Of a stretch of 64,000 bases of DNA, positions 23,086 to 51,892 are shown in pieces; within the stretch, counting starts at the first letter, position 1, and each line of letters opens with the position of its first letter. Position numbers and translations under genes: made by a program. Source of the stretch: Nocardia araoensis NBRC 100135 (GTDB lineage: Bacteria; Actinomycetota; Actinomycetes; Mycobacteriales; Mycobacteriaceae); contig NZ_BAFR01000212.1 in assembly GCF_000308435.1 (NCBI RefSeq), positions 1 to 64,000 on the forward strand, given 5' to 3'. A model generated the notes under the pieces. The model saw only the letters and a program-made list of their open reading frames with translations. It was not told the origin of the DNA and did no database searches.

Positions 23086-23145
23086 GTTGAGTGGCACAAG
23101 ACGGAGGCAAATCGCGAGTGACCTCTCCGTCATGTGCCACTCAAC
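23086..23145. terminator. Large inverted repeat between convergent genes
   Basis: A 21-bp stem with a single A-A mismatch (GTTGAGTGGCACA then GACGGAG, mirrored on the right) encloses an 18-nt loop. It lies between the sigma factor stop and the methyltransferase stop and overlaps the last codon of the latter. It is probably a bidirectional terminator, though it lacks a T tract. Confidence 0.6.
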
Positions 23146-24253
23146 GAGGTGCGAGGCGGTAGAGAGAGGTGGTTTCGCGGGTGCGGGCGTGGTGGAGGGG
23201 GGAGGTCGGGTTGTGGGCTCGGTGGTGGGTGGGGCGGGTGGTCAGTTGGGCGGTGATGTGGAGGCCTGCGGTTGTGATGCGGTGGAGGAGTTCGTCGTGG
23301 GGGCGCAGGCCGAGGTGTTCGGGGAGGTCGGAGAGGATCAGCCAACCTTCGCCACCAGGGTTCAGGTGGGCGGGGAGGCCGGTGAGGAAGGCGTGCAGCA
23401 TGGACGAGTTCTCGTCGTAGACGCCGCTTTCCAGTGCCGAGGTGGGCGTGCCGGGGAGCCAGGGCGGATTGCATACCACCAGGTCGGCCTTGCCATCCGG
23501 GAAAAGAGCCGGGCCTCGCACGTCGACGGATGACATGCCCAGCCGGTCCAGATTGGCGCGGGCGCAGGTGAGCGCACGAAGACTGTTGTCCGTAGCGGTA
23601 ATTCGACGGAAGCCACGACGGTCCAGGATGGCGGCGAGCACGCCGGTGCCCGTGCCGAGATCGAAGGCCGTCTCGGCCCGCGCGGGTAGCGGCGCGGACG
23701 CGACGAGATCGACGTACTCGCCGCGGACCGGGGAGAACACGCCGTAGTGCGGATGGATGCGGTCGCCGAGCGCGGGCACGTGAACGCCCTTCTCCCGCCA
23801 CTGCGCCGCACCGAGCACGCCGAGCAACTCGGTGAGCGCGACCACCATGCGCCCGTGCGGCGCGCCGTACGCCTCGGTGCACGCGCGCCGCACATCGGGA
23901 GCGCGCCGCAACGCCAGCGAATAGTCGTCTTCCAAGAGCACGAGCAACTTGCCGAGCACCTGCGCGCGCCGACGACGCGACGCGCGATACCGCTGGAACG
24001 CTTCGGCCGGTCCGTCGCCGACCGAAACCCTCCGATCGATTCGCCGCCCCATCGCACGCAGCAGTTGCCGCGCATTGTGGAAATCACCGCGCCACAGCAG
24101 ACCGGTCCCGGCTCGCGCCATTCGGCAAGCCGCGTCAGCGGTGATCCAGTCGTCCACCACCACAAGGGATTCGGGCGGCGGCGCGCCGTTCTCGGAATAC
24201 CAGCGGGCGGTCGGGCAGGTGTTGTGGTCTTCGGTCCAGCAAACGGCGGACAT
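23141..24253 (-). CDS. Class I SAM-dependent methyltransferase with NPPW motif
   Basis: A 370-aa protein. The N-terminal half (about 35-165) is a helical domain (WITADAACRMARAGTGLLWRGDFHNARQLLRAM) of the type seen in some actinobacterial methyltransferases. The C-terminal half is a Rossmann methyltransferase with SAM loop FDLGTGTGVLAA (198-209), acidic ribose residue in TATDNS, and catalytic NPPW at 262-265 (VVCNPPWLPG). NPPW/NPPY enzymes methylate the amide or amino nitrogens of Gln, adenine or guanine, so the target is likely rRNA, tRNA or a release-factor glutamine. The gene is preceded by a leader peptide and a terminator, which suggests induction by translation inhibitors. Confidence 0.88.
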   Translation of the reverse strand: MSAVCWTEDHNTCPTARWYSENGAPPPESLVVVDDWITADAACRMARAGTGLLWRGDFHNARQLLRAMGRRIDRRVSVGDGPAEAFQRYRASRRRRAQVLGKLLVLLEDDYSLALRRAPDVRRACTEAYGAPHGRMVVALTELLGVLGAAQWREKGVHVPALGDRIHPHYGVFSPVRGEYVDLVASAPLPARAETAFDLGTGTGVLAAILDRRGFRRITATDNSLRALTCARANLDRLGMSSVDVRGPALFPDGKADLVVCNPPWLPGTPTSALESGVYDENSSMLHAFLTGLPAHLNPGGEGWLILSDLPEHLGLRPHDELLHRITTAGLHITAQLTTRPTHHRAHNPTSPLHHARTRETTSLYRLAPR

Positions 24254-24312
24254 CGTGTACTCCTCGTGATCGAACGTGCATGGGCACGACGAGCACTTCG
24301 CCGCGGAGTCGC

Positions 24313-24340
24313 GAAAAGACCTGTGCGGCTAGCGCACAGG
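24313..24340 (-). terminator. Attenuator terminator between leader ORF and methyltransferase
   Basis: On the minus strand an 8-bp stem (CCTGTGCG with CGCACAGG, loop CTAGC; 24320-24340) is followed immediately by TCTTTTC. It begins two bases after the leader stop codon, so a ribosome stalled on the last leader codons would block its folding. The distance to the methyltransferase ATG is about 65 nt. Confidence 0.75.
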
Positions 24341-24342
24341 GA

Positions 24343-24411
24343 TCACCGGAGGTTCGTCTGGACCCGCGCCGAAGTGCGCGGGAAGTCGCCGAGAACCATG
24401 CCGAGCGTCAT
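24343..24411 (-). CDS. Leader peptide (22 aa) of the methyltransferase gene
   Basis: A short ORF with ATG at 24411 and TGA at 24345-24343. A good ribosome site, GAAAGG, is placed 7 nt upstream of the ATG. The peptide begins MTLGMVLGDFP and ends ARVQTNLR. An intrinsic terminator begins two bases after its stop. Leader ORF, terminator, then rRNA-type methyltransferase is the classic arrangement for antibiotic-induced attenuation in Gram-positives. Peptide expression and sensing are inferred; the ORF and the hairpin are directly visible. Confidence 0.7.
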   Translation of the reverse strand: MTLGMVLGDFPRTSARVQTNLR

Positions 24412-24610
24412 GACCGGACCTTTCCGTAGAGAGACACCAGAGTCTCCCACAGCGCTGCCCCAGTGAGAACTCCGGACCATGAGGCGACGAGCACCGCATG
24501 CCAGTCGCCTCAGGATCCGGACCGCCGCCCGATATGGCGGCTACGCGCACACCGGGCTCTGAAGGCCCACGAGCACGTGCGTCAGCTACGGAGGAAACGC
24601 GTCGGCTACT

Positions 24611-25126
24611 TCACGCCGCGCCGTTCGCCGGTTCGGCGTGCAACCGGCGGAACTTGCTGCCGTGGAAGACCAGCGGATCCACGTCGGTGCGGGTGGCGAT
24701 GCGGTGGATGCGCAGGATGACGACCGCGTGGTCGCCTGCCGGGACGTGGGCCTCCTGAACGCCCTCGATCCAGGCCGTCGCGCCGTCGATGAAGACGGCG
24801 TCACCGGAACCGCGGTGCAGCTGGATGTCACGGAAGCGATCGCCGTCGCGGGTGCCCAGCGAGCGGGCAGCGGCCTGCTGGTCGGTGCCGAGCAGGCTGA
24901 GGCCGAGGTGGCTGGCGGCGGCGAGCTTGGGCCAGGTGGCCGAGGAGTTCTGCACGCAGAACGAGACCAGCGGCGGATCGAGGGAGACGGGAACGAACGT
25001 GCTCACCGCCAGACCGTGCGGAGTTCCGTCGATTTCGGCGCACACCGCGACGACGCCGCTGGGGAAATTGGCGAACGCGCGACGCAGACCGGCTCCGTCG
25101 GCGGGGAATTCGAACAGGTCATGCAT
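24611..25126 (-). CDS. Flavin reductase-like FMN-binding protein
   Basis: A 171-aa flavin reductase domain protein, expected to pass electrons from NAD(P)H to free FMN or FAD for the monooxygenases upstream. Typical segments are FANFPSGVVAVCAEIDGTPHGLAVSTFVPVSLDPPLVSFCVQNSSATWPKL in order (split here only for reading) and the late GDHAVVILRIHRI...PLVFHGSKFRRL. ATG 25126 starts 8 bases inside the end of the preceding gene (ATGCATGA overlap). It is the last gene of the sulfur operon that starts at 29497. Confidence 0.9.
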   Translation of the reverse strand: MHDLFEFPADGAGLRRAFANFPSGVVAVCAEIDGTPHGLAVSTFVPVSLDPPLVSFCVQNSSATWPKLAAASHLGLSLLGTDQQAAARSLGTRDGDRFRDIQLHRGSGDAVFIDGATAWIEGVQEAHVPAGDHAVVILRIHRIATRTDVDPLVFHGSKFRRLHAEPANGAA

Positions 25127-25634
25127 GATTCGCAGCCTTCGAGCTGTGGGCCAGTGCCTGGGCGACCGAACGCCACCGACCACTGTACCGGTCGATGACG
25201 CCGTCCTCGGCGAAAGTGCGATCGGACAGGTAGAGCCCGGGCAACGCGGCGGTGGCCCCGATTTCGACGAGCACGGGCTTGAGCAGCAGGTCGGGAGCGA
25301 GGGCGTGGGCCGGTCCTGCGCCGAGCATCACCGGGACCGCGAGCACGCCTTCCAGGCCCGTCCCGCCCTCGAATTGTTCGAGGAACAGCTTCAGCAGACC
25401 GGTGTAGGTCGCCTTGAAGGTAGGGCTGGCGAAGACGACGAGTTCCGAACCCGCCACGGTGCGCACCGCTTCGGCCACGGCCGCGTCACCCCAGCTGAGC
25501 AGGGCGGGGCCGAACTCGACCAGGTCGACCACGGTGGGCTCCACCTCCGGCCGCAATCCCCGCGCGACCAGGGTGGCCGCGGTGAGCGTGCGTGACGCGG
25601 GTTTCGGATTTCCGACGACGACAGTGACCGTCAT
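25119..25634 (-). CDS. NADPH-dependent FMN reductase (SsuE/MsuE-like)
   Basis: A 171-aa flavodoxin-fold reductase. The N-terminal FMN loop is VVVGNPKPASRTLTAA (about 5-20). The second site is LVVFASPTFKATYTGLLKLFLEQ (about 65-87), the PxxxxxxPGxLK-type region of this family. It would supply FMNH2 to the SfnG and SfnB-like enzymes. The start ATG is at 25634 with AAAGGAG upstream; longer frames are shadows. It overlaps the flavin reductase gene by eight bases and follows the SfnB-like gene by 11 bp. Confidence 0.9.
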   Translation of the reverse strand: MTVTVVVGNPKPASRTLTAATLVARGLRPEVEPTVVDLVEFGPALLSWGDAAVAEAVRTVAGSELVVFASPTFKATYTGLLKLFLEQFEGGTGLEGVLAVPVMLGAGPAHALAPDLLLKPVLVEIGATAALPGLYLSDRTFAEDGVIDRYSGRWRSVAQALAHSSKAANHA

Positions 25635-25645
25635 TTCGTCTCCTT

Positions 25646-26863
25646 TCAGATCACACCGTGTAGCGGTGGCGCGGCGTCGTGCAGCAGTGCCCTGCCGATG
25701 TGCTGGTACTTCCAGCGCACCGGATCGTGCAGGGTGTGCGTGCGCGCGTTGCGCCAGAAGTGGTGCAGGTTGAGATCCGCCGCCGCGCTGCGCGTTCCGG
25801 CGACTTCGAACAGCGCGGCCGACACGTCGTTGGCGGCGCGGTCGGCGAGCACTTTGGCGGTCGCCACGGCCAGCGACGCCTGGGCGATGTTCGCGGCGCT
25901 GGGATCGATCCTGATGGCCGCGTCCAACGCCCATCCCGCCGACGAGAGGGTCGCCTCCGCGGCGGTCACCGCGACGGACAATTCGCCGAAGCGCTGGATC
26001 AACAGCGGGTCGTCCACCGCGTTCGCCACCCCCGCCTCGAACCACGGACGACTCTTCGTGCGCACGAATTCCGTCGCCGCGCTGAGCGCGCCCCTGGCGA
26101 TACCGGTGTCGATGGCGGCGTGCAGCAACTGTGCGAACGCGCCGTAGCCGGTGGGTGCGCGCACCGCGCCGGAGCGGGGAATCACCTGGTCACGATCGAC
26201 GAGCACGCCGTCGAACGACACCGTTCCACTGCCGGTGGTGCGCTGCCCGATCCCGTTCCAGTCGTCCACGACGCGCACGCCGGGAGTATTGGCGGGCAGG
26301 TAGACGATGTACTCACCGGGTTCGAGACCGCTGCGCCCCTCCGGGTCGTCCAGCCGGGTCAGCACCGCGAACAGATCGGCGAACAGCGAGCCGGTGCAGT
26401 AGTACTTCACGCCGTCCACCCGGAACCGATCATCGACCGGCCGCAAGGTGGTCGCGATGTCGGCGACGGTCGCGCCGCCGCGCTCGGACTGCGCGTTGGC
26501 GATGCGCCCGCCGTCGAGCACCCGCCCGAAGTACCGCTCCTGCTGCTGCGCCGTACCCGCGAGCCGGAGCAGGTTCACGTACACGAAGTGGCTGTGCGGG
26601 ATCTGCGCGATATTGGGATCGGCGGTGGCGAGAATGCGCGTCACTTCCGCGACCGCGCTCGGCGGCAGATCCGCGCCGCCGTGCGCGGCGGGCACGGTGA
26701 TCGCGAGCAGACCGCTGGCCGCCAGCCGATCGACCTGCGCGTACGGCAGCGCGCGCTCCCGGTCGCGTTCGGCGGCTCCCGGCGCGAAATCCGCCGCGAG
26801 CCGCTGGGCGACCGCGAACGCCTGTGCCGCCGACAGGATGCGATCGGCGGCGACCGCGGTCAT
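25646..26863 (-). CDS. SfnB/DszC-like flavin monooxygenase (acyl-CoA dehydrogenase fold)
   Basis: A 405-aa member of the acyl-CoA-dehydrogenase-fold monooxygenases used in sulfur scavenging. The N terminus has DRLAASGLLAITVPAAHGGAD. The middle has AQSERGGATVADIATTL and DGVKYYCTGSLFADLF, as in SfnB and DszC. The C-terminal LNLHHFWRNARTHTLHDPVRWKYQHIG is diagnostic of this subgroup (HxxWRNxRTHTLHDP). It would oxygenate an organosulfur compound using reduced FMN from its neighbours. Its ATG overlaps the sfnG stop (TGATG). Confidence 0.9.
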   Translation of the reverse strand: MTAVAADRILSAAQAFAVAQRLAADFAPGAAERDRERALPYAQVDRLAASGLLAITVPAAHGGADLPPSAVAEVTRILATADPNIAQIPHSHFVYVNLLRLAGTAQQQERYFGRVLDGGRIANAQSERGGATVADIATTLRPVDDRFRVDGVKYYCTGSLFADLFAVLTRLDDPEGRSGLEPGEYIVYLPANTPGVRVVDDWNGIGQRTTGSGTVSFDGVLVDRDQVIPRSGAVRAPTGYGAFAQLLHAAIDTGIARGALSAATEFVRTKSRPWFEAGVANAVDDPLLIQRFGELSVAVTAAEATLSSAGWALDAAIRIDPSAANIAQASLAVATAKVLADRAANDVSAALFEVAGTRSAAADLNLHHFWRNARTHTLHDPVRWKYQHIGRALLHDAAPPLHGVI

Positions 26864-27978
26864 CAGTTCACCGCCGCGACGGGCCGCTGCGCGGCTTCCA
26901 GCTCGCGCACCAGCGGGAGCACCTTCGCGCCGAAGTACTCGATCTCCTCCTGGAAGTCCAGGAAGCCGCCGAGGATCAGGTCGACGCCGAGCTGCTTGTA
27001 GGCGACGATCCGTTCGGCCACCTGCTCCGGCGTGCCGATCAGCTGGGTGCGGAAACCGTCGTTGTACTGCACCAGGTCCTCGAACGTGGAATCGGCCCAC
27101 ATGCCCTTGCGGTCCTTGGTGGACGCGCCCGCCTGCTGCACCGCGTCGCGGAAGCCCTCCACCGCGGGCTTGTTCGCCTTCTCGATGATCTCGCGCAAGG
27201 TGTCGCGGGCTTCGGCCTCCGTGTCGCGGGCGATGATGAAGCCGTTGAGCCCGAATTTCACCTCGCGGTCGTGCGCGCGGGCGACGGAGCGCAGGTCGTC
27301 GAGTTGTTCGGTGACGCCGTCGAAGTCCTTGCCGTTGGAGAAGTACCAGTCGGCGTAGCGGCCGCCGTTGCGCCGAGCGGCGGTCGAGTTGCCGCCTTGG
27401 AACAGTTCGGGGTTCGGCCGCTCGGGGGTGTTCAGCGGCTTCGGCTTCAGGGTGAAGTCCCGGATGCGGTAGAAATCGCCGCCGTAGTTCACGTTGTCCT
27501 CGGTCCAGATCTTGCGGATCACCTCGAGGAATTCGGCGCTGCGCCGGTAGCGCTCGTCGTGCTCGAGCCACGGCTCGCCGAGCGCGGTGAACTCGCCCGC
27601 GAACCAGCCGGACACGACGTTGATGGCGAACCGGCCATTGGAAAGGTGGTCGGCGGTGGCGCCGAATTTGGCCAGCACCGCGGGGTGCCACAGCCCGGGA
27701 TGCACGGCCGCGATGACCTTCAGCCGCTCGGTCGCGCCGAGCAGCGCGAGGCTGAACGAGGTCGATTCGTGCTGGTATTCCGCGCCGTAGGAGGCGGTGT
27801 AGCGCACCTGGGACAGCGCGTAGTCGAAGCCGTTGTTCTCCGCGGTCTGCGCGAGCTTCTTGTTGTATTCGAAATCCCAGCTGGTGCGCTGTTCGATATC
27901 GCTGGTGACCAGTCCCCCGCTGACATTGGGCACCCAGTAGGCGAATCGGATCTGCTCGGCGATCTGCTCCGTGGTCAT
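26863..27978 (-). CDS. sfnG: Dimethylsulfone monooxygenase-type LLM flavin oxidoreductase
   Basis: A 371-aa bacterial-luciferase-fold monooxygenase. It carries the SfnG signature FAYWVPNVSGGLVTSDIEQRTSWDFEYNKKLAQ in its first 45 residues, then GAEYQHESTSFSLALL, VIAAVHPGLWHP, NGRFAINVVSGWFAGEFTALGE and LEHDERYRRS. SfnG converts dimethylsulfone to methanesulfinate with FMNH2 and O2. The match to that subfamily is strong by eye, but the true substrate could be another sulfone. The ATG has GGAG 7 nt upstream. It is followed without a gap by the SfnB-like gene and the reductases. Confidence 0.9.
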   Translation of the reverse strand: MTTEQIAEQIRFAYWVPNVSGGLVTSDIEQRTSWDFEYNKKLAQTAENNGFDYALSQVRYTASYGAEYQHESTSFSLALLGATERLKVIAAVHPGLWHPAVLAKFGATADHLSNGRFAINVVSGWFAGEFTALGEPWLEHDERYRRSAEFLEVIRKIWTEDNVNYGGDFYRIRDFTLKPKPLNTPERPNPELFQGGNSTAARRNGGRYADWYFSNGKDFDGVTEQLDDLRSVARAHDREVKFGLNGFIIARDTEAEARDTLREIIEKANKPAVEGFRDAVQQAGASTKDRKGMWADSTFEDLVQYNDGFRTQLIGTPEQVAERIVAYKQLGVDLILGGFLDFQEEIEYFGAKVLPLVRELEAAQRPVAAVN

Positions 27979-28105
27979 AGCTGCTCCATGGTTATCGGGG
28001 GTAGCCGTCGGATCGGAGGCCGGACGCCACGCATGCGTCCGGCGCTCCTTCCACTCCAGCACCGGCCCCCGGTCGGGACGAGGTTTTGAATCTGCGCGAT
28101 TCGGA

Positions 28106-29497
28106 TCAGGCGTCGGCCAGCGCGGGCGAGTAGCCCGACCTGGCGAACTTGCCCGCGGGCGCGAACCGGCCCAGTAGCGCGGCGGCGTCCTCGCCGGTGA
28201 CCCGCGTGATGAACTCGTTGACCGCTTCCGGCGAGTCGACGGGCAGGAACGGCTGCGGGCGGTGCAGCAGGCCGACCAGCGCCGACGCGAACGCCGGGTC
28301 GACGGCCGCGGCGGCGAAGAACGCGTTGCCGACCTCGGCCAGCTCGGGATCGCTGAGGAACAGCCTGGTCACCTTGTTCGCCGCGTCGGCGCGCGCGGCG
28401 AGGAACGCGGCGTACTGCCGCGCGATCCACGCCTCGTCGAACGGTCCTTCGTGCACGGCGGCCGCCGCGACCAGCCGCTGGGCCTGGATCAGGCCGCTCT
28501 GCGCGCCCTGCCCGGCGATCGGGTCGTAGGCGATGGCGGTGTCACCGAGCGCGGCGACCACATGCCCGCCTGTGGTGCGCCCGACCCCCGACCGCACGAC
28601 CGGGCGCACCGCGCCCTTCAGCCACGAGTGCGGGTCCTCGGGAATGGTCTTGGTGGCCAGCACCTCCGGCAGATCCCACTCGATGTAGTCGCGGTAGAGG
28701 TCCTGCACGATCCGGTGCGCCGACTCGGCGGAGTCGGCGCCGGCGAATCGCTTCTCCCAGTCACTGCCGGGGCGCGCCCAGCCGAGGAATGCCCAGCTCG
28801 GCCCCGCATCCTTGTGCAGGTACGGGCCCCACCACCCCTCGCCCTGATCGGCGAGGATGGAGAAGCCGCTGTGCGCGCCGCCCGCCACGCTGCGATGAGC
28901 GAAGACGTTCTCGTCGTGGCCGAGTCCGGTGACTACGACGGTGAGCAACGACCGCTGCGGCGCGTCGTAGGGGGTGCGCTGCGCGTCGACGGGGAACAGG
29001 TCCGACAGACCGCCGCGACCGGTCGCGACCAGGGTGAGGTCGTTGGCGGCGGCGATGCCGTCGAGCGTCTCCGGCGTCACCTGCTCCACCACGAACCGGC
29101 CGCCGCGCTCCAGGAACGCGGTGAGCCGCTCGTCGGCCTTGAGCCGGGTGTCCACCGCGACGCCGACGTATCCGTCGAAATGCCCGTCGAATTGGATCAA
29201 TTCGGGGCGGTCGGGACCGGGGCCCGCGATGCGAACGCTCAAGCCGGTGTGCCGGGGCGCACGCGCGGTATAGCTGTCCAAGCCGAGCGCGGCCTCGGCC
29301 TGCTGGGTCTCGCCGAATTCGAGCGCGGTGCCGGTGGCGGGCACGTCGTCACGCAGAGCGCGCTGATCACGCTCGCTGTAGAGGCTGACGTCGAAACCGG
29401 CGTCGAGAAGTCCTAGCGCCGCAGTGACGCCGGTCTGTCCGGCACCGATAACCGCGGCCGAACGAGTGGAACGGGATACGGATTGCTGCGAAGTCAT
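28106..29497 (-). CDS. Styrene/indole monooxygenase-like flavoprotein (StyA type)
   Basis: A 463-aa single-component FAD hydroxylase. The FAD-binding Rossmann loop is AVIGAGQTGVTAALGLLDAGFDVSLYSE (about 15-42). The StyA family features are RFVVEQVTPETL, TLVATGRGGLSDLFPVD, EGWWGPYLHKDAGPSWAFLGWARPGSDWEKRF, and the second FAD motif ALGDTAIAYDPIAGQGAQSGLIQA. StyA enzymes need reduced FAD from a separate reductase, which the flavin reductase at 24611 could provide. In this setting the substrate may be a thioether, since StyA relatives also oxidise sulfides. It lies 127 bp upstream of sfnG. There is no clear ribosome site at 29497. Confidence 0.85.
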   Translation of the reverse strand: MTSQQSVSRSTRSAAVIGAGQTGVTAALGLLDAGFDVSLYSERDQRALRDDVPATGTALEFGETQQAEAALGLDSYTARAPRHTGLSVRIAGPGPDRPELIQFDGHFDGYVGVAVDTRLKADERLTAFLERGGRFVVEQVTPETLDGIAAANDLTLVATGRGGLSDLFPVDAQRTPYDAPQRSLLTVVVTGLGHDENVFAHRSVAGGAHSGFSILADQGEGWWGPYLHKDAGPSWAFLGWARPGSDWEKRFAGADSAESAHRIVQDLYRDYIEWDLPEVLATKTIPEDPHSWLKGAVRPVVRSGVGRTTGGHVVAALGDTAIAYDPIAGQGAQSGLIQAQRLVAAAAVHEGPFDEAWIARQYAAFLAARADAANKVTRLFLSDPELAEVGNAFFAAAAVDPAFASALVGLLHRPQPFLPVDSPEAVNEFITRVTGEDAAALLGRFAPAGKFARSGYSPALADA

Positions 29498-29595
29498 GCA
29501 GGAATGATGCGATGGCCGCACGATGCTCGCCGAGTGTTGCGATCACCGAGAATCAATGGGCAGACAGCGAATTCCCGGCGCGTACCATTCGGCCC

Positions 29596-30078
29596 ATGTC
29601 GTTTGTCGTCGCCGAACTCACCGGAGACCGCACGGAACAGTACCGTCAGCTCGCCGCTCAGGCCGAAGCGCTGGTCGCGGGTGAGACCGACCGCATCGCC
29701 AACGCCGCGAATCTGTCCGCGCTGGTATTCCATGCATTATCGGATGTGAATTGGGTGGGTTTCTATTTCTACGACGGGCGAGAACTCGTAGTCGGCCCGT
29801 TTCAGGGCAAACCCGCCTGTGTGCGCATCGCGTTGGGGAAAGGCGTGTGCGGCACGGCTGCACAGACCAGAAGCACCCAACTCGTACCCGATGTGCACAC
29901 CTTCGAGGGACACATCGCGTGCGATGCCGATACACGTTCGGAAATAGTCGTGCCGTTGGTCCGCGACGATTCGCTGATCGGAGTATTCGATCTCGACAGT
30001 CCGCGCCCCGAGCGCTTCGACGACATCGATCGCGCGGGGCTGGAAGCGGTAGCCGAGATATTTCTCGCGGCGATCTGA
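29596..30078 (+). CDS. msrC: Free methionine-(R)-sulfoxide reductase (GAF domain)
   Basis: A 160-aa GAF-fold enzyme reducing free L-methionine-(R)-sulfoxide to methionine with thioredoxin-type reductants. The fRMsr signature is complete: NWVGFYFYDGRELVVGPFQGKPACVRI and GKGVCGTAA, then VHTFEGHIACD and SEIVVPL. The three redox cysteines are Cys75, Cys85 and Cys109. It is divergent from the StyA-like gene and convergent with the DszA-like gene, so it sits inside the sulfur locus on its own transcript. Confidence 0.95.
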   Translation: MSFVVAELTGDRTEQYRQLAAQAEALVAGETDRIANAANLSALVFHALSDVNWVGFYFYDGRELVVGPFQGKPACVRIALGKGVCGTAAQTRSTQLVPDVHTFEGHIACDADTRSEIVVPLVRDDSLIGVFDLDSPRPERFDDIDRAGLEAVAEIFLAAI

Positions 30079-30095
30079 TTCGTCGGCCGGAAAGC

Positions 30096-30133
30096 CGGAC
30101 GGCGCCGGGCCACGAAGGCTTCGGCGCCGTCCG
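30096..30133. terminator. Bidirectional terminator between msrC and the DszA-like gene
   Basis: A perfect 12-bp inverted repeat (CGGACGGCGCCG) with a 14-nt loop lies between two convergent stops. Confidence 0.8.
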
Positions 30134-30139
30134 AGCACA

Positions 30140-31573
30140 TTACGAGTTCGCCTCGACCGTCGCTCCCGGCCGCGAAACAGTATCCGGCAGGGCCGTCGAT
30201 CCCTGGCCGCCCAGCCGGTAGCTCGCGCCGCGATGGTCGGTGGGCAACCGGTCACCCGCGCCGAACAACGCGTTGCGCAGCGTGCCCGGCGTGTACTCCG
30301 GGGCGTACGCGCCTCGGGCGGTCAATACCGGGACCACGTGCCGGACGATGTCTTCGAACGTTCCCGGCGTGATCGCGTAGGCCAGGTTGAAGCCGTCCAG
30401 ATCGGTTTCGGCGGCCCACTCCTGGAGCAGGTCGGCGACCGTTTCCCCGGAACCGACGAAAACCGGGCCCATGCCGCCGATGCCCGCCCACTTGCCGATG
30501 TCGCGCACGGTCCATTCCCGCCCGTCGTCATCGAATTCCTGGAACGCCGCCACCGCCGACTGGATCGCGTTGCTTTCGACCTGGCCGATCGGGTCGTCGA
30601 GGTCGTAGCGGGACAGGTCGATGCCCATCCAGCCGGACATGAACACCAACCCGCCCTCGACGCTCGCGTAGGACAGGTACTCCTCGTGTTTGCGCCGCGC
30701 CGCCTCGTCGGTCGCGTCGGTGACGATCGTCGCCAGTGCGTAGACGCGTGCCGCGTCACGGGCGCGGCCTGCCGCCTCCAGCGCGTCCCTGATCCGGGAA
30801 ACGGTCTGCGCGAGCACGCGTTTCGACGGACCGGCGATGAAGATGGCCTCGGCGTTCTCGGCCGCGAACCGCACGCCGCGTGGCGACGCGCCCGCCTGGT
30901 AGATCACCGGCGTGCGTTGTGGCGACGGCTCCGACAGGTGGATGCCCGGCACGGCGTAGTGCGTGCCGTGATGACCGATGTGGTGCACTTTGGCCGGGTC
31001 CACGTAGACGCCCGCGGCCGCGTCGCGGACCACCGCGTCGTCCTCCCACGAGCCCTCCCACAGCTTGTACAGCACCTCGAGGTACTCGTCGGCCTGGTTG
31101 TAGCGCTCGTCGTGGTCGAGTTGGTCGGCCGCGCCGAAATTGCGCGCGGCGGAAGGCAGATAGCCGGTCACGACGTTCCAGCCGAGCCTGCCGTTGGTGA
31201 GATGGTCGAGCGTCGACAGCCGCCGCGCGAACGGGTACGGGTGCTCGAATCCGGTGCCGGTGGTGATGCCGAACCCGAGATGCTCGGTCACCGCGGCCAT
31301 GGCGGAGACCAGCAGCAGCGGGTCGGCCACCGGGATCTGCGCGCCTTGGCGCAGCGCGGCGATGTCGTTGCCGCCGTAGACGTCATAGGTACCCAGGACG
31401 TCGGCGATGAAGATGCCGTCGAAGCGGCCGCGTTCCAGCAGCTTCGCCAGCTCGGTCCAGTAGCCCAGCTCCTTGTAACGGTGCGACTGGTCTTCGGGGT
31501 GTCGCCACAGGCCCGGGGACTGATGGGCGACGCAATTCATGTCGAAGGCGTTGAACCGGATCCGGCGGGTCAC
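30140..31573 (-). CDS. DszA/NtaA-type LLM flavin monooxygenase
   Basis: A 477-aa FMNH2-dependent monooxygenase of the NtaA/SnaA/DszA subfamily. Diagnostic segments are CVAHQSPGLWRHPEDQS, LLERGRFDGIFIADVLGTYD, LDHLTNGRLGWNVVTGYLPSAARNFG, LDHDERYNQADEYLEVLYKLWEGSW, YVDPAKVHHIGHHG and PVIYQAGASPRGVRFAAENAEAIF. DszA opens dibenzothiophene sulfone; other members attack nitrilotriacetate or sulfides, so the substrate is not fixed. The GTG start overlaps the DszC-like stop by four bases. Reduced flavin probably comes from the two reductases at 24.6-25.6 kb. Confidence 0.88.
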   Translation of the reverse strand: MTRRIRFNAFDMNCVAHQSPGLWRHPEDQSHRYKELGYWTELAKLLERGRFDGIFIADVLGTYDVYGGNDIAALRQGAQIPVADPLLLVSAMAAVTEHLGFGITTGTGFEHPYPFARRLSTLDHLTNGRLGWNVVTGYLPSAARNFGAADQLDHDERYNQADEYLEVLYKLWEGSWEDDAVVRDAAAGVYVDPAKVHHIGHHGTHYAVPGIHLSEPSPQRTPVIYQAGASPRGVRFAAENAEAIFIAGPSKRVLAQTVSRIRDALEAAGRARDAARVYALATIVTDATDEAARRKHEEYLSYASVEGGLVFMSGWMGIDLSRYDLDDPIGQVESNAIQSAVAAFQEFDDDGREWTVRDIGKWAGIGGMGPVFVGSGETVADLLQEWAAETDLDGFNLAYAITPGTFEDIVRHVVPVLTARGAYAPEYTPGTLRNALFGAGDRLPTDHRGASYRLGGQGSTALPDTVSRPGATVEANS

Positions 31574-32793
31574 TGTGCGGCTCCGGCAGCCGGTGTGCGT
31601 TCGCCCGCGCTCCACGCGAACGGCAGATCAGCGCCGTTGAGCAGGTGGTCGCCGATCGCCCGCGCCTTCTGGATCGCCGGGTTGTGCACCGAGATGGTGC
31701 GGGCGTTGCGCCAGTGCCGATCCAATCGCAGCCGTTCGGAAACGACCGAAGCGCCGCCCACTTCGAACAACAACGAGGTCGCGGGCAGCACCAGATCGAT
31801 GACGGCGAGCTGGGCCCGAGCCGCCGCGAGTTCGGCCGCCACCACCGCGCTCTCGTCCTTCGCGCCACCCGCGAGCACCCCGTCGAGCACGTCGGCGACG
31901 GCGAGCACGCTCGCTTCGGCGGCGAACGCGGCCGCCGACAGGCGTCCGATCACCTGCTGCACCAGTGGGTCGTGCCGCGGCAGGTCGGCGGCGGAATGCG
32001 TGTAGCCGCGGGTGCGCGCCGCGACCCACTCCCGGACGTCGCGCTCGGCGCGCTTGGCGATGCCCGCCAGCACCGCGAGCTGGACCAGTTGCAGGTAGGA
32101 GGTCGCGTAGGTCGGGCCAGGCGCGCCGTAGCCGGGGCCGAGAATGCGATCCTCGGTCACCACCACATCGGTGAATTCCGTTGTTCCGCTGGCCGTCAGC
32201 CGCTGGCCGAAGCCGTCCCAGTCGTCGTGCTGACGCACTCCCTCGGCATTCGCGTCCACCAGCACCCCGACGCGCTCACCGTTCCGGTCGGCGGCGGCCA
32301 GGATGTAGTCTGCGTACAGCGATCCCGTGCTGTAGTACTTCACACCGTTGAGCAGCCACCGCCCGCCGTCCTCGGTCAGCGTGGTGCGGTAGCGGTCCAC
32401 CGCGCCGACACCGGGTTCGGTGATCGCGTTGCCCACCAGCGTGCCCTCGGCCACCGCGCGCAGCCACCGCTCCCGCTCGGGCCCCTGCTCCGCCAGCAGT
32501 TGATCCTCGACGAACGAGAAGTGCACCCGCAACGCCTGCGGCAGATTCGATTCCGCGGCGGCGAGCTCGATGAGCAGCCGGAACAGCTGCCGGACGGTGA
32601 CGCCGTACCCGCCGAACTCGACCGGAACGCGCAGCGCGCCGAACTTCGCCGCGCGCAGCAGTCCGACCTCGTCGTAAGGCAGCGTGCGATCGATTTCTCG
32701 CGTCACGGCTCCCTGGGCGATCCGGTCGAAGATCGGGCCGAAGATCGCATCCAGTTCGGAATCGGTAGTGGATTTCGCCTCGGTGGTCGTCAT
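31570..32793 (-). CDS. DszC/SfnB-like flavin monooxygenase (acyl-CoA dehydrogenase fold)
   Basis: A 407-aa protein homologous to the one at 25646. It contains FGALRVPVEFGGYGVTVRQLFRLLIELAAAESNLPQ, NAITEPGVGAVDRYRTTL, NGVKYYSTGSLYADYI, HDDWDGFGQRLTASGTTEF and the diagnostic C-terminal DRHWRNARTISVHNPAIQKARAIG. It would perform S-oxidation ahead of the DszA-like enzyme, with which it is translationally coupled. The start is ATG 32793; the frame to 32811 adds six residues. Confidence 0.88.
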   Translation of the reverse strand: MTTTEAKSTTDSELDAIFGPIFDRIAQGAVTREIDRTLPYDEVGLLRAAKFGALRVPVEFGGYGVTVRQLFRLLIELAAAESNLPQALRVHFSFVEDQLLAEQGPERERWLRAVAEGTLVGNAITEPGVGAVDRYRTTLTEDGGRWLLNGVKYYSTGSLYADYILAAADRNGERVGVLVDANAEGVRQHDDWDGFGQRLTASGTTEFTDVVVTEDRILGPGYGAPGPTYATSYLQLVQLAVLAGIAKRAERDVREWVAARTRGYTHSAADLPRHDPLVQQVIGRLSAAAFAAEASVLAVADVLDGVLAGGAKDESAVVAAELAAARAQLAVIDLVLPATSLLFEVGGASVVSERLRLDRHWRNARTISVHNPAIQKARAIGDHLLNGADLPFAWSAGERTPAAGAAQ

Positions 32794-51579: not shown

Positions 51580-51725
51580 GAACCGTCCTCCCCGTTCGAT
51601 TGAATTGTGGACCCGCACCGCTGCGCGTCCTCACCAACGATAGTGGTCCTCACCGACAGCGGTCGGCGCAGCTCGGGCATAACGCACATCCCGCGCGAAG
51701 AACCGGGTACACCACACAAAGCGGC

Positions 51726-51764
51726 CCGCGCAGTTGCCGGGTCGGGGGTCAGGCAACTGCGCGG
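51726..51764. repeat. 13-bp inverted repeat in the VanW/6PGDH divergent region
   Basis: The 313-bp gap 51580-51892 has no gene. CCGCGCAGTTGCC (51726-51738) is matched perfectly by its complement (51752-51764) across a 13-nt G-rich spacer. It could be an operator, a leader hairpin of the dehydrogenase transcript, or a terminator. Confidence 0.5.
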
Positions 51765-51892
51765 AGCCGATTGGTTTATCGGGCTGTCGCGGGCGGCGTT
51801 ACACCCGCGAGCCGAACCGTGATCGATCCCACGCGGGAGAATCGAGACGAACCCCCGCCGCAAGACTTCGCTACACGAGGGAGATGGATGGC

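Follow-up and report, generated by a model that had tools for sequence, protein, structure and literature searches.

A methyltransferase gene in the window, that is, in the whole stretch of 64,000 nucleotides of Nocardia araoensis DNA analyzed here, is probably controlled by a ribosome-dependent translational attenuator, in which a short leader ORF (uORF) encodes the sensor LGMV[LV][GW]D and the controlled gene (MT, used for both gene and protein; minus strand, 24253-23141) encodes a methyltransferase other than Erm. Comparisons at the level of sequence revealed a conserved sensor, covariation in two alternative helices of the RNA (2:3 and 3:4), and linkage to MT in all checked matches. In the attenuator model we infer, beyond these observations, a stall, an inducer, and a target of the enzyme. 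At rest, the 1:2 and 3:4 hairpins would form and the ribosome site of MT (SD) would be hidden, and a ribosome passing through the whole uORF would leave 3:4 in place too. The uORF peptide L-G-M-V-[LV]-[GW]-D would stall the ribosome when translation is under stress, most likely caused by an antibiotic in the exit tunnel or the peptidyl transferase center; a ribosome-targeting drug is our best guess for the inducer. Stalled at the point where Gly/Trp occupies the P site and Asp the A site, the ribosome would cover segment 1 and leave segment 2 free to pair with segment 3, which would open the SD. The stress would be relieved once MT had modified the ribosome or, alternatively, a translation factor.

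Table 1. Elements of the leader and of MT in the window, with positions and the basis of each assignment
Feature	Position	Strand	Basis
uORF ribosome-binding site GGAAAGG	24419..24425	-	Sequence; similar purine-rich stretches precede many of 40 listed uORFs
Leader ORF MTLGMVLGDFPRTSARVQTNLR-stop, 22 codons, ATG 24411, TGA 24345-24343	24343..24411	-	Sequence; orthologous uORFs
Sensor codons L-G-M-V-L-G-D	24385..24405	-	Conservation; the predicted stall places Gly in the P site and Asp in the A site
uORF hairpin, segments 1 and 2, CCCGCGC-ACTTCG-GCGCGGG	24363..24382	-	Sequence; counterparts in relatives
8-bp hairpin CCTGTGCG-CTAGC-CGCACAGG, two bases after the stop, terminator-like, optional element	24320..24340	-	Terminator scan
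TCTTTTC tail of the 8-bp hairpin	24313..24319	-	Sequence
Segment 3 (GACTCCGCGGCGAAGTGCTC), predicted partner of segment 2 (ON) or of the MT ribosome site (OFF)	24291..24310	-	Duplex energies
Segment 4 ACGAGGAG, MT ribosome-binding site	24260..24267	-	Duplex energies, folding
Class I SAM methyltransferase of 370 aa with a distinct N-terminal domain and NPPWLP in its C-terminal MTS domain	23141..24253	-	PF05175; AlphaFold2

The initial annotation listed a ribosome site, a 22-codon ORF, a stop, an 8-bp hairpin followed by TCTTTTC, and an NPPW-type methyltransferase gene, and this order was confirmed on the minus strand; only the distance between the T tail and the start of MT, given there as 65 nt, came out differently, at about 60 nt. 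A short putative uORF with its own predicted ribosome site is hence placed just 5' of MT, as in attenuators of the Erm type. At the leader site, no Rfam family reached its gathering score in the window, nor in three other leaders (L035, L054, and L013). Elsewhere in the window, positions 51718-51773 of the minus strand matched the F6 sRNA of Rfam with 54.1 bits. The genes upstream of the leader (24614-31615, minus strand) had no evident link to it; one of them resembles a flavin reductase (PF01613), and others are, by their ORF translations, presumably FMN-dependent monooxygenase-like.

Conservation of the peptide was analyzed in 71 motif-bearing loci, which yielded 55 distinct leaders selected by the sensor motif. 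Gly was found in 55 of the 55, followed by Met in 53, Val in 55, Leu or Val in 55, Gly in 43 or Trp in 12, and Asp in 54 (one leader had Glu), with a sensor pN/pS of 0.23; both the residue counts and this ratio are partly by construction, because the leaders were picked by the motif. In the same set, pN/pS was 1.17 over the six codons that follow Asp, whereas the other two frames gave 0.80 and 1.75. When actinobacterial loci were instead selected for homology of MT and for presence of the downstream RNA element, with the sensor disregarded, the sensor was present in 33 and lacking in four of the 37 loci, and its pN/pS was 0.37, a value that includes the poor alignments of L007 and L081. The conserved residues of the uORF end at Asp. 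Additionally, the stretch ahead of the sensor contains a duplication or an insertion in three leaders (L046, L057, and L182), and the distance from the start codon to Asp is therefore not fixed. The C-terminal RVQTNLR, which the initial annotation proposed to look for in orthologues, proved not to be shared: the leaders of the 10 other members of the subclade to which the window belongs all stop inside it, and VQTNLR is private to the window genome, where it exists because the TAG of the other 10 reads CAG.

Among 40 genomes searched for orthologues of MT, 17 of the 24 from the same genus, its own included, gave strong matches (E 2e-53 or better), one of which was cut by a contig end (L015) and one split in two pieces (L017). 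The 16 genomes of other genera contained catalytic-domain matches at most, and six of them contained none. The leader motif was present at 15 of the 17 Nocardia MT loci. The two loci without the sensor were L007, where it is not recognizable, and L009, where the attenuator is absent and the leader start is fused directly to the gene (VTMGM-ESVVHWTED). In a named collection, the MT family also included members from Streptosporangium, Nonomuraea, Streptomyces, and Proteobacteria. From at least 552 relatives in this collection, 80 were kept (42 actinobacterial by title and 38 proteobacterial), and the sensor motif was found within 300 bases upstream of MT in 25 of the 42 actinobacterial loci, in contrast to none of the 38 proteobacterial loci. 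Scans of these same 80 detected neither the sensor nor a truncated form in 15 of the 42 (nine of the 15 were read), although the downstream RNA element is retained in one of the 15, L081. In L078 and L080, a stop occurs at the Asp codon (VTLGMVLP-stop and VTLGMVVG-stop, respectively) and the RNA elements are retained.

Searches for the leader itself led back to the same gene. The pattern GGCATGGTNNTNGGNGAYN{3,16}CGCNYTTCG occurred once each in 25 of 98 Nocardia genomes and, when reversed, in none, which puts the leader beyond chance, and MT was directly downstream at all 20 of the loci that were fetched; among the 25 genomes, G010 and G023 were known from the orthologue search, and G047, G068, and G103 lay outside the linkage check. 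The leader pattern was also found in seven of 199 Streptomyces genomes, with MT adjoining in all seven, and a sensor-only pattern was found in eight of 295 genomes (four genomes overlap the Streptomyces search), all eight with MT. A class-wide search returned two of 296 genomes, one of which is that of the window, and both have MT. Every match to the leader pattern with a checked neighborhood hence stands before MT. These results bear out the proposal that a conserved leader peptide precedes the methyltransferase gene, and this leader very probably acts through ribosome stalling.

MT was also matched by 15 records of a plasmid collection, which included Streptomyces plasmids, and wherever these matches had a listed feature (five places) it was a class I SAM-dependent methyltransferase. 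Two records of Neisseria gonorrhoeae (H10 and H11) contain a homologue with about 43% identity, which is perhaps broken because it was matched in three pieces. No MT match was found among the phage records. The comparison of gene neighborhoods, where clustering was disturbed by antisense ORFs, pointed to no function of MT. In seven proteobacterial loci (L051:5145-6327 and six further ones of the Thiobacillus/Hydrogenophilales type), an extra gene was found near MT, directly behind it in L051; by its motif, this gene looks S-adenosylmethionine synthetase-like.

The RNA of the leader contains four segments. Segments 1 and 2 are located in the uORF, for example as TCTCGCG and CGCGGGAG flanking CTTCGA, segment 3 is CTCCTCGTCGAAGTGC, and segment 4 is ACGAGGAG, the SD. 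Two pairings compete, one of segment 2 with segment 3 (GCGCTTCGACG with CGTCGAAGTGC) and the other of segment 3 with segment 4. Across 52 canonical leaders, the 2:3 helix was 95.1% paired, compared with 30-51% in slid registers, and its double changes included C-G to T-A and C-G to G-C. The covariation score of 2:3 in these leaders exceeded all 500 shuffles, as did that of 3:4, where in both cases the shuffles do not keep relatedness; for 3:4, the slid register -2 came close to the true one on score (0.110 vs. 0.125). Covariation beyond shuffles was not observed for the uORF hairpin 1:2 (318 of 500 shuffles at least as high), nor for 2:3 within the 26 closer leaders (418 of 500). The mean energy of the 2:3 duplex was -25.9 kcal/mol, compared with -13.1 kcal/mol when shuffled, and the cognate mean was reached by none of 2,000 partner permutations, which ignore relatedness; the same was true of 3:4. 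In the window, the two duplexes had energies of -23.0 (2:3) and -10.6 kcal/mol (3:4). Mutually exclusive helices, one of which hides the SD, were found for 41 of the 52 canonical leaders and, in a weak form, in the window's subclade of 11.

The influence of the ribosome on this switch was modeled by placing it at each codon, folding the RNA downstream, and computing the cost of opening the SD. Among the 41 leaders outside the subclade, the mean cost was 6.8 kcal/mol for early positions, 4.2 at Leu/Val, 3.9 at Gly/Trp, 6.7 at Asp, and 9.9 for positions past the sensor. When the P site held Gly/Trp, and the A site Asp, opening was cheaper than in the past position for 41 of 41 leaders. The mean relief was 6.0 kcal/mol, compared with 1.4 kcal/mol when the uORF tails were shuffled, and it was above the leader's own shuffles in 38 of the 41. 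Whichever was smaller, the Leu/Val or the Gly/Trp value, it was under both sides in 39 of 41 leaders and, once the set had been thinned, in 14 of 14. This dip was robust to the footprint and to the fold length, and the nascent chain predicted at the dip has seven to eight residues in the common forms. The end of the conserved peptide thereby coincides with the best opening of the SD, where the codon before Asp is in the P site.

The prediction differed in the window's subclade of 11 leaders, where opening was cheap at all positions and the mean cost was 5.0 kcal/mol for early positions, 2.8 at Leu, 4.5 at Gly, and 3.7 past the sensor. The Gly value was under the past value in five of the 11, with a relief of 0.84 compared with -0.11 in shuffles, and a dip under both sides was present in nine of the 11. 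In the window, the SD appeared to be hidden by a local hairpin and not by the usual 3:4 lock, with 2:3 still strong. The switch is thus weak in silico in this subclade, which retains the sensor and the 2:3 pairing, and a weak 3:4 lock together with an added T-tailed hairpin suggests that control here may be leaky or partly transcriptional.

A different output was observed in seven compact Streptomyces loci (L044, L050, L088, L173, L174, L177, and L178), where the sensor is kept and the RNA switch, with its uORF hairpin, is absent. In all seven, the uORF has 43-47 codons, crosses the SD out of frame with MT, and stops 56-68 nt past the MT start, and the predicted accessibility of the SD was mixed (0.08-0.55). 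This layout suggests that ribosomes running through the uORF would block the initiation of MT, and that a stalled one would not.

At its C terminus, the enzyme itself carries an MTS domain (PF05175, E 7.7e-13). At E 0.01, Pfam returned MTS and other methyltransferase domains, and no PF00398 (Erm/RrnaAD). MT was under every cut-off among the 25 NCBIfam families listed, including Erm37 (16.8 bits; cut-off 350) and RsmC (21.9 bits; cut-off 295), and an identity as the release-factor methyltransferase PrmC was rejected at 49.5 bits against a cut-off of 199.1. PHROGs gave one weak match, to a family of unknown function, and PADLOC assigned mad2 to the catalytic domain only (residues 176-331, E 5.3e-15). 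We take the NPP[WY]-type motif of MT to be that of PrmC/HemK, RsmC, RlmG, and N6AMT1.

The AlphaFold2 model of MT had a mean pLDDT of 90.2. Its best full-length fold match was chain FE of the mitoribosomal small-subunit assemblosome of Trypanosoma brucei (9hny, 6sga), an assembly intermediate, with a Z of 26.5, an rmsd of 3.5, and 334 aligned positions over MT residues 2-370 at 16% identity. A second chain of the same complex, 6sg9_F4, aligned with residues 49-370 (Z 19.5). The other matches, from Z 20.2 down, mainly involved the catalytic part, from around residue 150 onward (Asc-Orf2, PrmC, N6AMT1, RlmG, and RsmC), and residues 1-144 were barely covered outside the top matches. Sequence profiles (58 matches) reached the catalytic part only, and chain FE was not among them. 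The chain lettering suggests that FE is mt-SAF14, which is called a Mettl15 homologue in the available part of PMC11785013; we infer this identity from the lettering only, because that part of the source does not name the chain.

These likenesses bear on an autogenous reading, in which the sensor would respond to no drug and machinery lacking the modification made by MT itself (the ribosome, or a release or elongation factor) would stall at LGMVLGD. The position of MT behind all checked leader matches would fit such a loop, as would the fold match to an assembly intermediate and the resemblance of the catalytic domain to PrmC, RsmC, RlmG, and N6AMT1, which act on translation components. However, MT looks like an accessory gene, given its presence in 17 of the 24 genomes of the genus, the leader in seven of the 199 Streptomyces genomes, and the homologues on Streptomyces plasmids, and the autogenous reading is considered rather unlikely.

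A transcription attenuator is also unlikely. Here, the T-tailed hairpin would terminate transcription by default, and a stalled ribosome on the uORF would avert this, as the 8-bp hairpin and TCTTTTC of the window could suggest. The terminator scan of 701 bases found this one site where 0.4 would be expected by chance, and the hairpin alone is therefore not beyond chance. A hairpin with a T tract between leader and MT is present in the window and its subclade: at least four T were found in 10 of the 11 members compared with 11 of the 41 other leaders, and at least five T in five of the 11 compared with none of the 41. The T-tailed hairpin is hence confined to the subclade, and a terminator was rejected as the mechanism common to all leaders. 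In addition, L054 has no stable spacer structure, yet it keeps the sensor and the helices. Within the subclade, the predictions were divided. With Gly in the P site, the predicted hairpin fell from 0.97 to 0.02 in L003, which has seven T, and from 0.93 to 0.15 in L033, and it dipped to 0.58 at Leu in L004. In contrast, in the window it remained between 0.95 and 1.00 at all ribosome positions computed, and it stayed at 0.58 or more with the ribosome on the sensor in eight of the 10 members tested (the window included and L032 left out). In the window, the predicted hairpin is thus indifferent to the ribosome, but a lineage-specific terminator in the subclade is possible because in L003 and L033 the predicted loss occurs exactly with the ribosome on the sensor, which the attenuator of the initial annotation would demand. 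Of the ribosome-controlled attenuator of the initial annotation, the leader and the stalling logic are retained, whereas the switch shared by the leaders appears to be translational, hiding the SD, and is not a terminator.

Two further readings are very improbable. An attenuator of amino-acid supply, like the trp, leu, and ilv leaders, would share the short uORF and the alternative helices, but it was rejected on the codon pattern of the sensor, which has no run of one codon and in which several differing residues are kept jointly and synonymous change is free; moreover, the product is a methyltransferase and no biosynthetic enzyme was recognized. The uORF could otherwise be a decaying or chance ORF over a conserved RNA. 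The codons past Asp are indeed not conserved as peptide, and the RASTR codons seem to be kept for the RNA, because L010, L011, and L123 read the same uORF hairpin in another frame. Nevertheless, the sensor pN/pS was 0.37 where it had not been selected for, and the sensor persists in the seven compact loci without that hairpin.

A broader reading of the translational attenuator is offered tentatively. The system may represent a new family of inducible ribosome-modifying methyltransferases in actinomycetes, with LGMV[LV][GW]D as a new arrest peptide and a target site unlike those of known resistance methyltransferases, possibly in the small subunit. As part of the same tentative reading, the sensor may be modular and act, by lineage, through the SD-hiding switch, a uORF over the gene start, or, in the window's subclade, a T-tailed hairpin. 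If this is right, the arrest peptide and the MT family of Nocardia and Streptomyces would join a small set of drug-sensing leader systems, and standard assays could reveal the target of the enzyme and the inducer. The pairing of one sensor with different actuators would be a natural experiment on the evolution of switches, and constitutive expression is predicted for alleles of the L009 type, which have lost the attenuator and join the gene start to that of the leader.

No description of an LGMV[LV][GW]D leader was found in the literature covered, which consisted of titles and the starts of abstracts, with most subscription papers outside its scope; 'MVLGD' had one unrelated occurrence. The available portions of PMC8079986, with its text on Streptomyces lividans leader peptides, and of PMC10219788 do not mention the leader. 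A leader shared with Streptomyces Erm genes of NF000337 was rejected. Of 23 genes over the NF000337 cut-off in 121 genomes, 22 loci were compared over 600 bases upstream (the truncated L153 was left out), and none contained the sensor, the best having four of its seven residues. Upstream of these Erm genes (L143-L162, within 450 bases), RGPGAL occurred in 13 and PGALTG in 12 of the 22 loci, which is a different leader from LGMV[LV][GW]D or a coding remnant.

Among known systems, MT shares the MTS-type C-terminal catalytic domain with PrmC/HemK, RsmC, RlmG, and N6AMT1, from which it differs by some 150-170 additional residues at the N terminus. It has a common fold with the trypanosome chain FE at 16% identity, from which a common function does not follow. 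A second methyltransferase leader, that of yxjB in B. subtilis, presumably differs from the window system in gene family, phylum, and peptide. The tylosin-dependent leader of this 23S rRNA methyltransferase gene is reported to require NusG-dependent pausing of RNA polymerase, and, as far as described in the available part of PMC6851288, control of an rRNA methyltransferase by a drug-stalled leader peptide resembles the model proposed here. The leaders of ermC, ermB, and ermSF are alike in having a short uORF before a methyltransferase and a four-segment switch on the ribosome site of the gene. In the four-segment model of ermC, and in erm attenuators generally, masking segment 1 frees segment 2 for segment 3, the same logic as predicted here. 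The window leader differs from them in its sensor, LGMV[LV][GW]D, and in its enzyme, which is MTS/PrmC-like and not Erm. According to the available parts of the sources, stalling at a length close to that predicted here is described for the ErmDL peptide, after seven residues (PMC8298421), and for ermBL, at its tenth codon (PMC8274638). The decisive position of ermBL is an Asp codon, as in the present leader, which differs in that its Asp is predicted to be in the A site.
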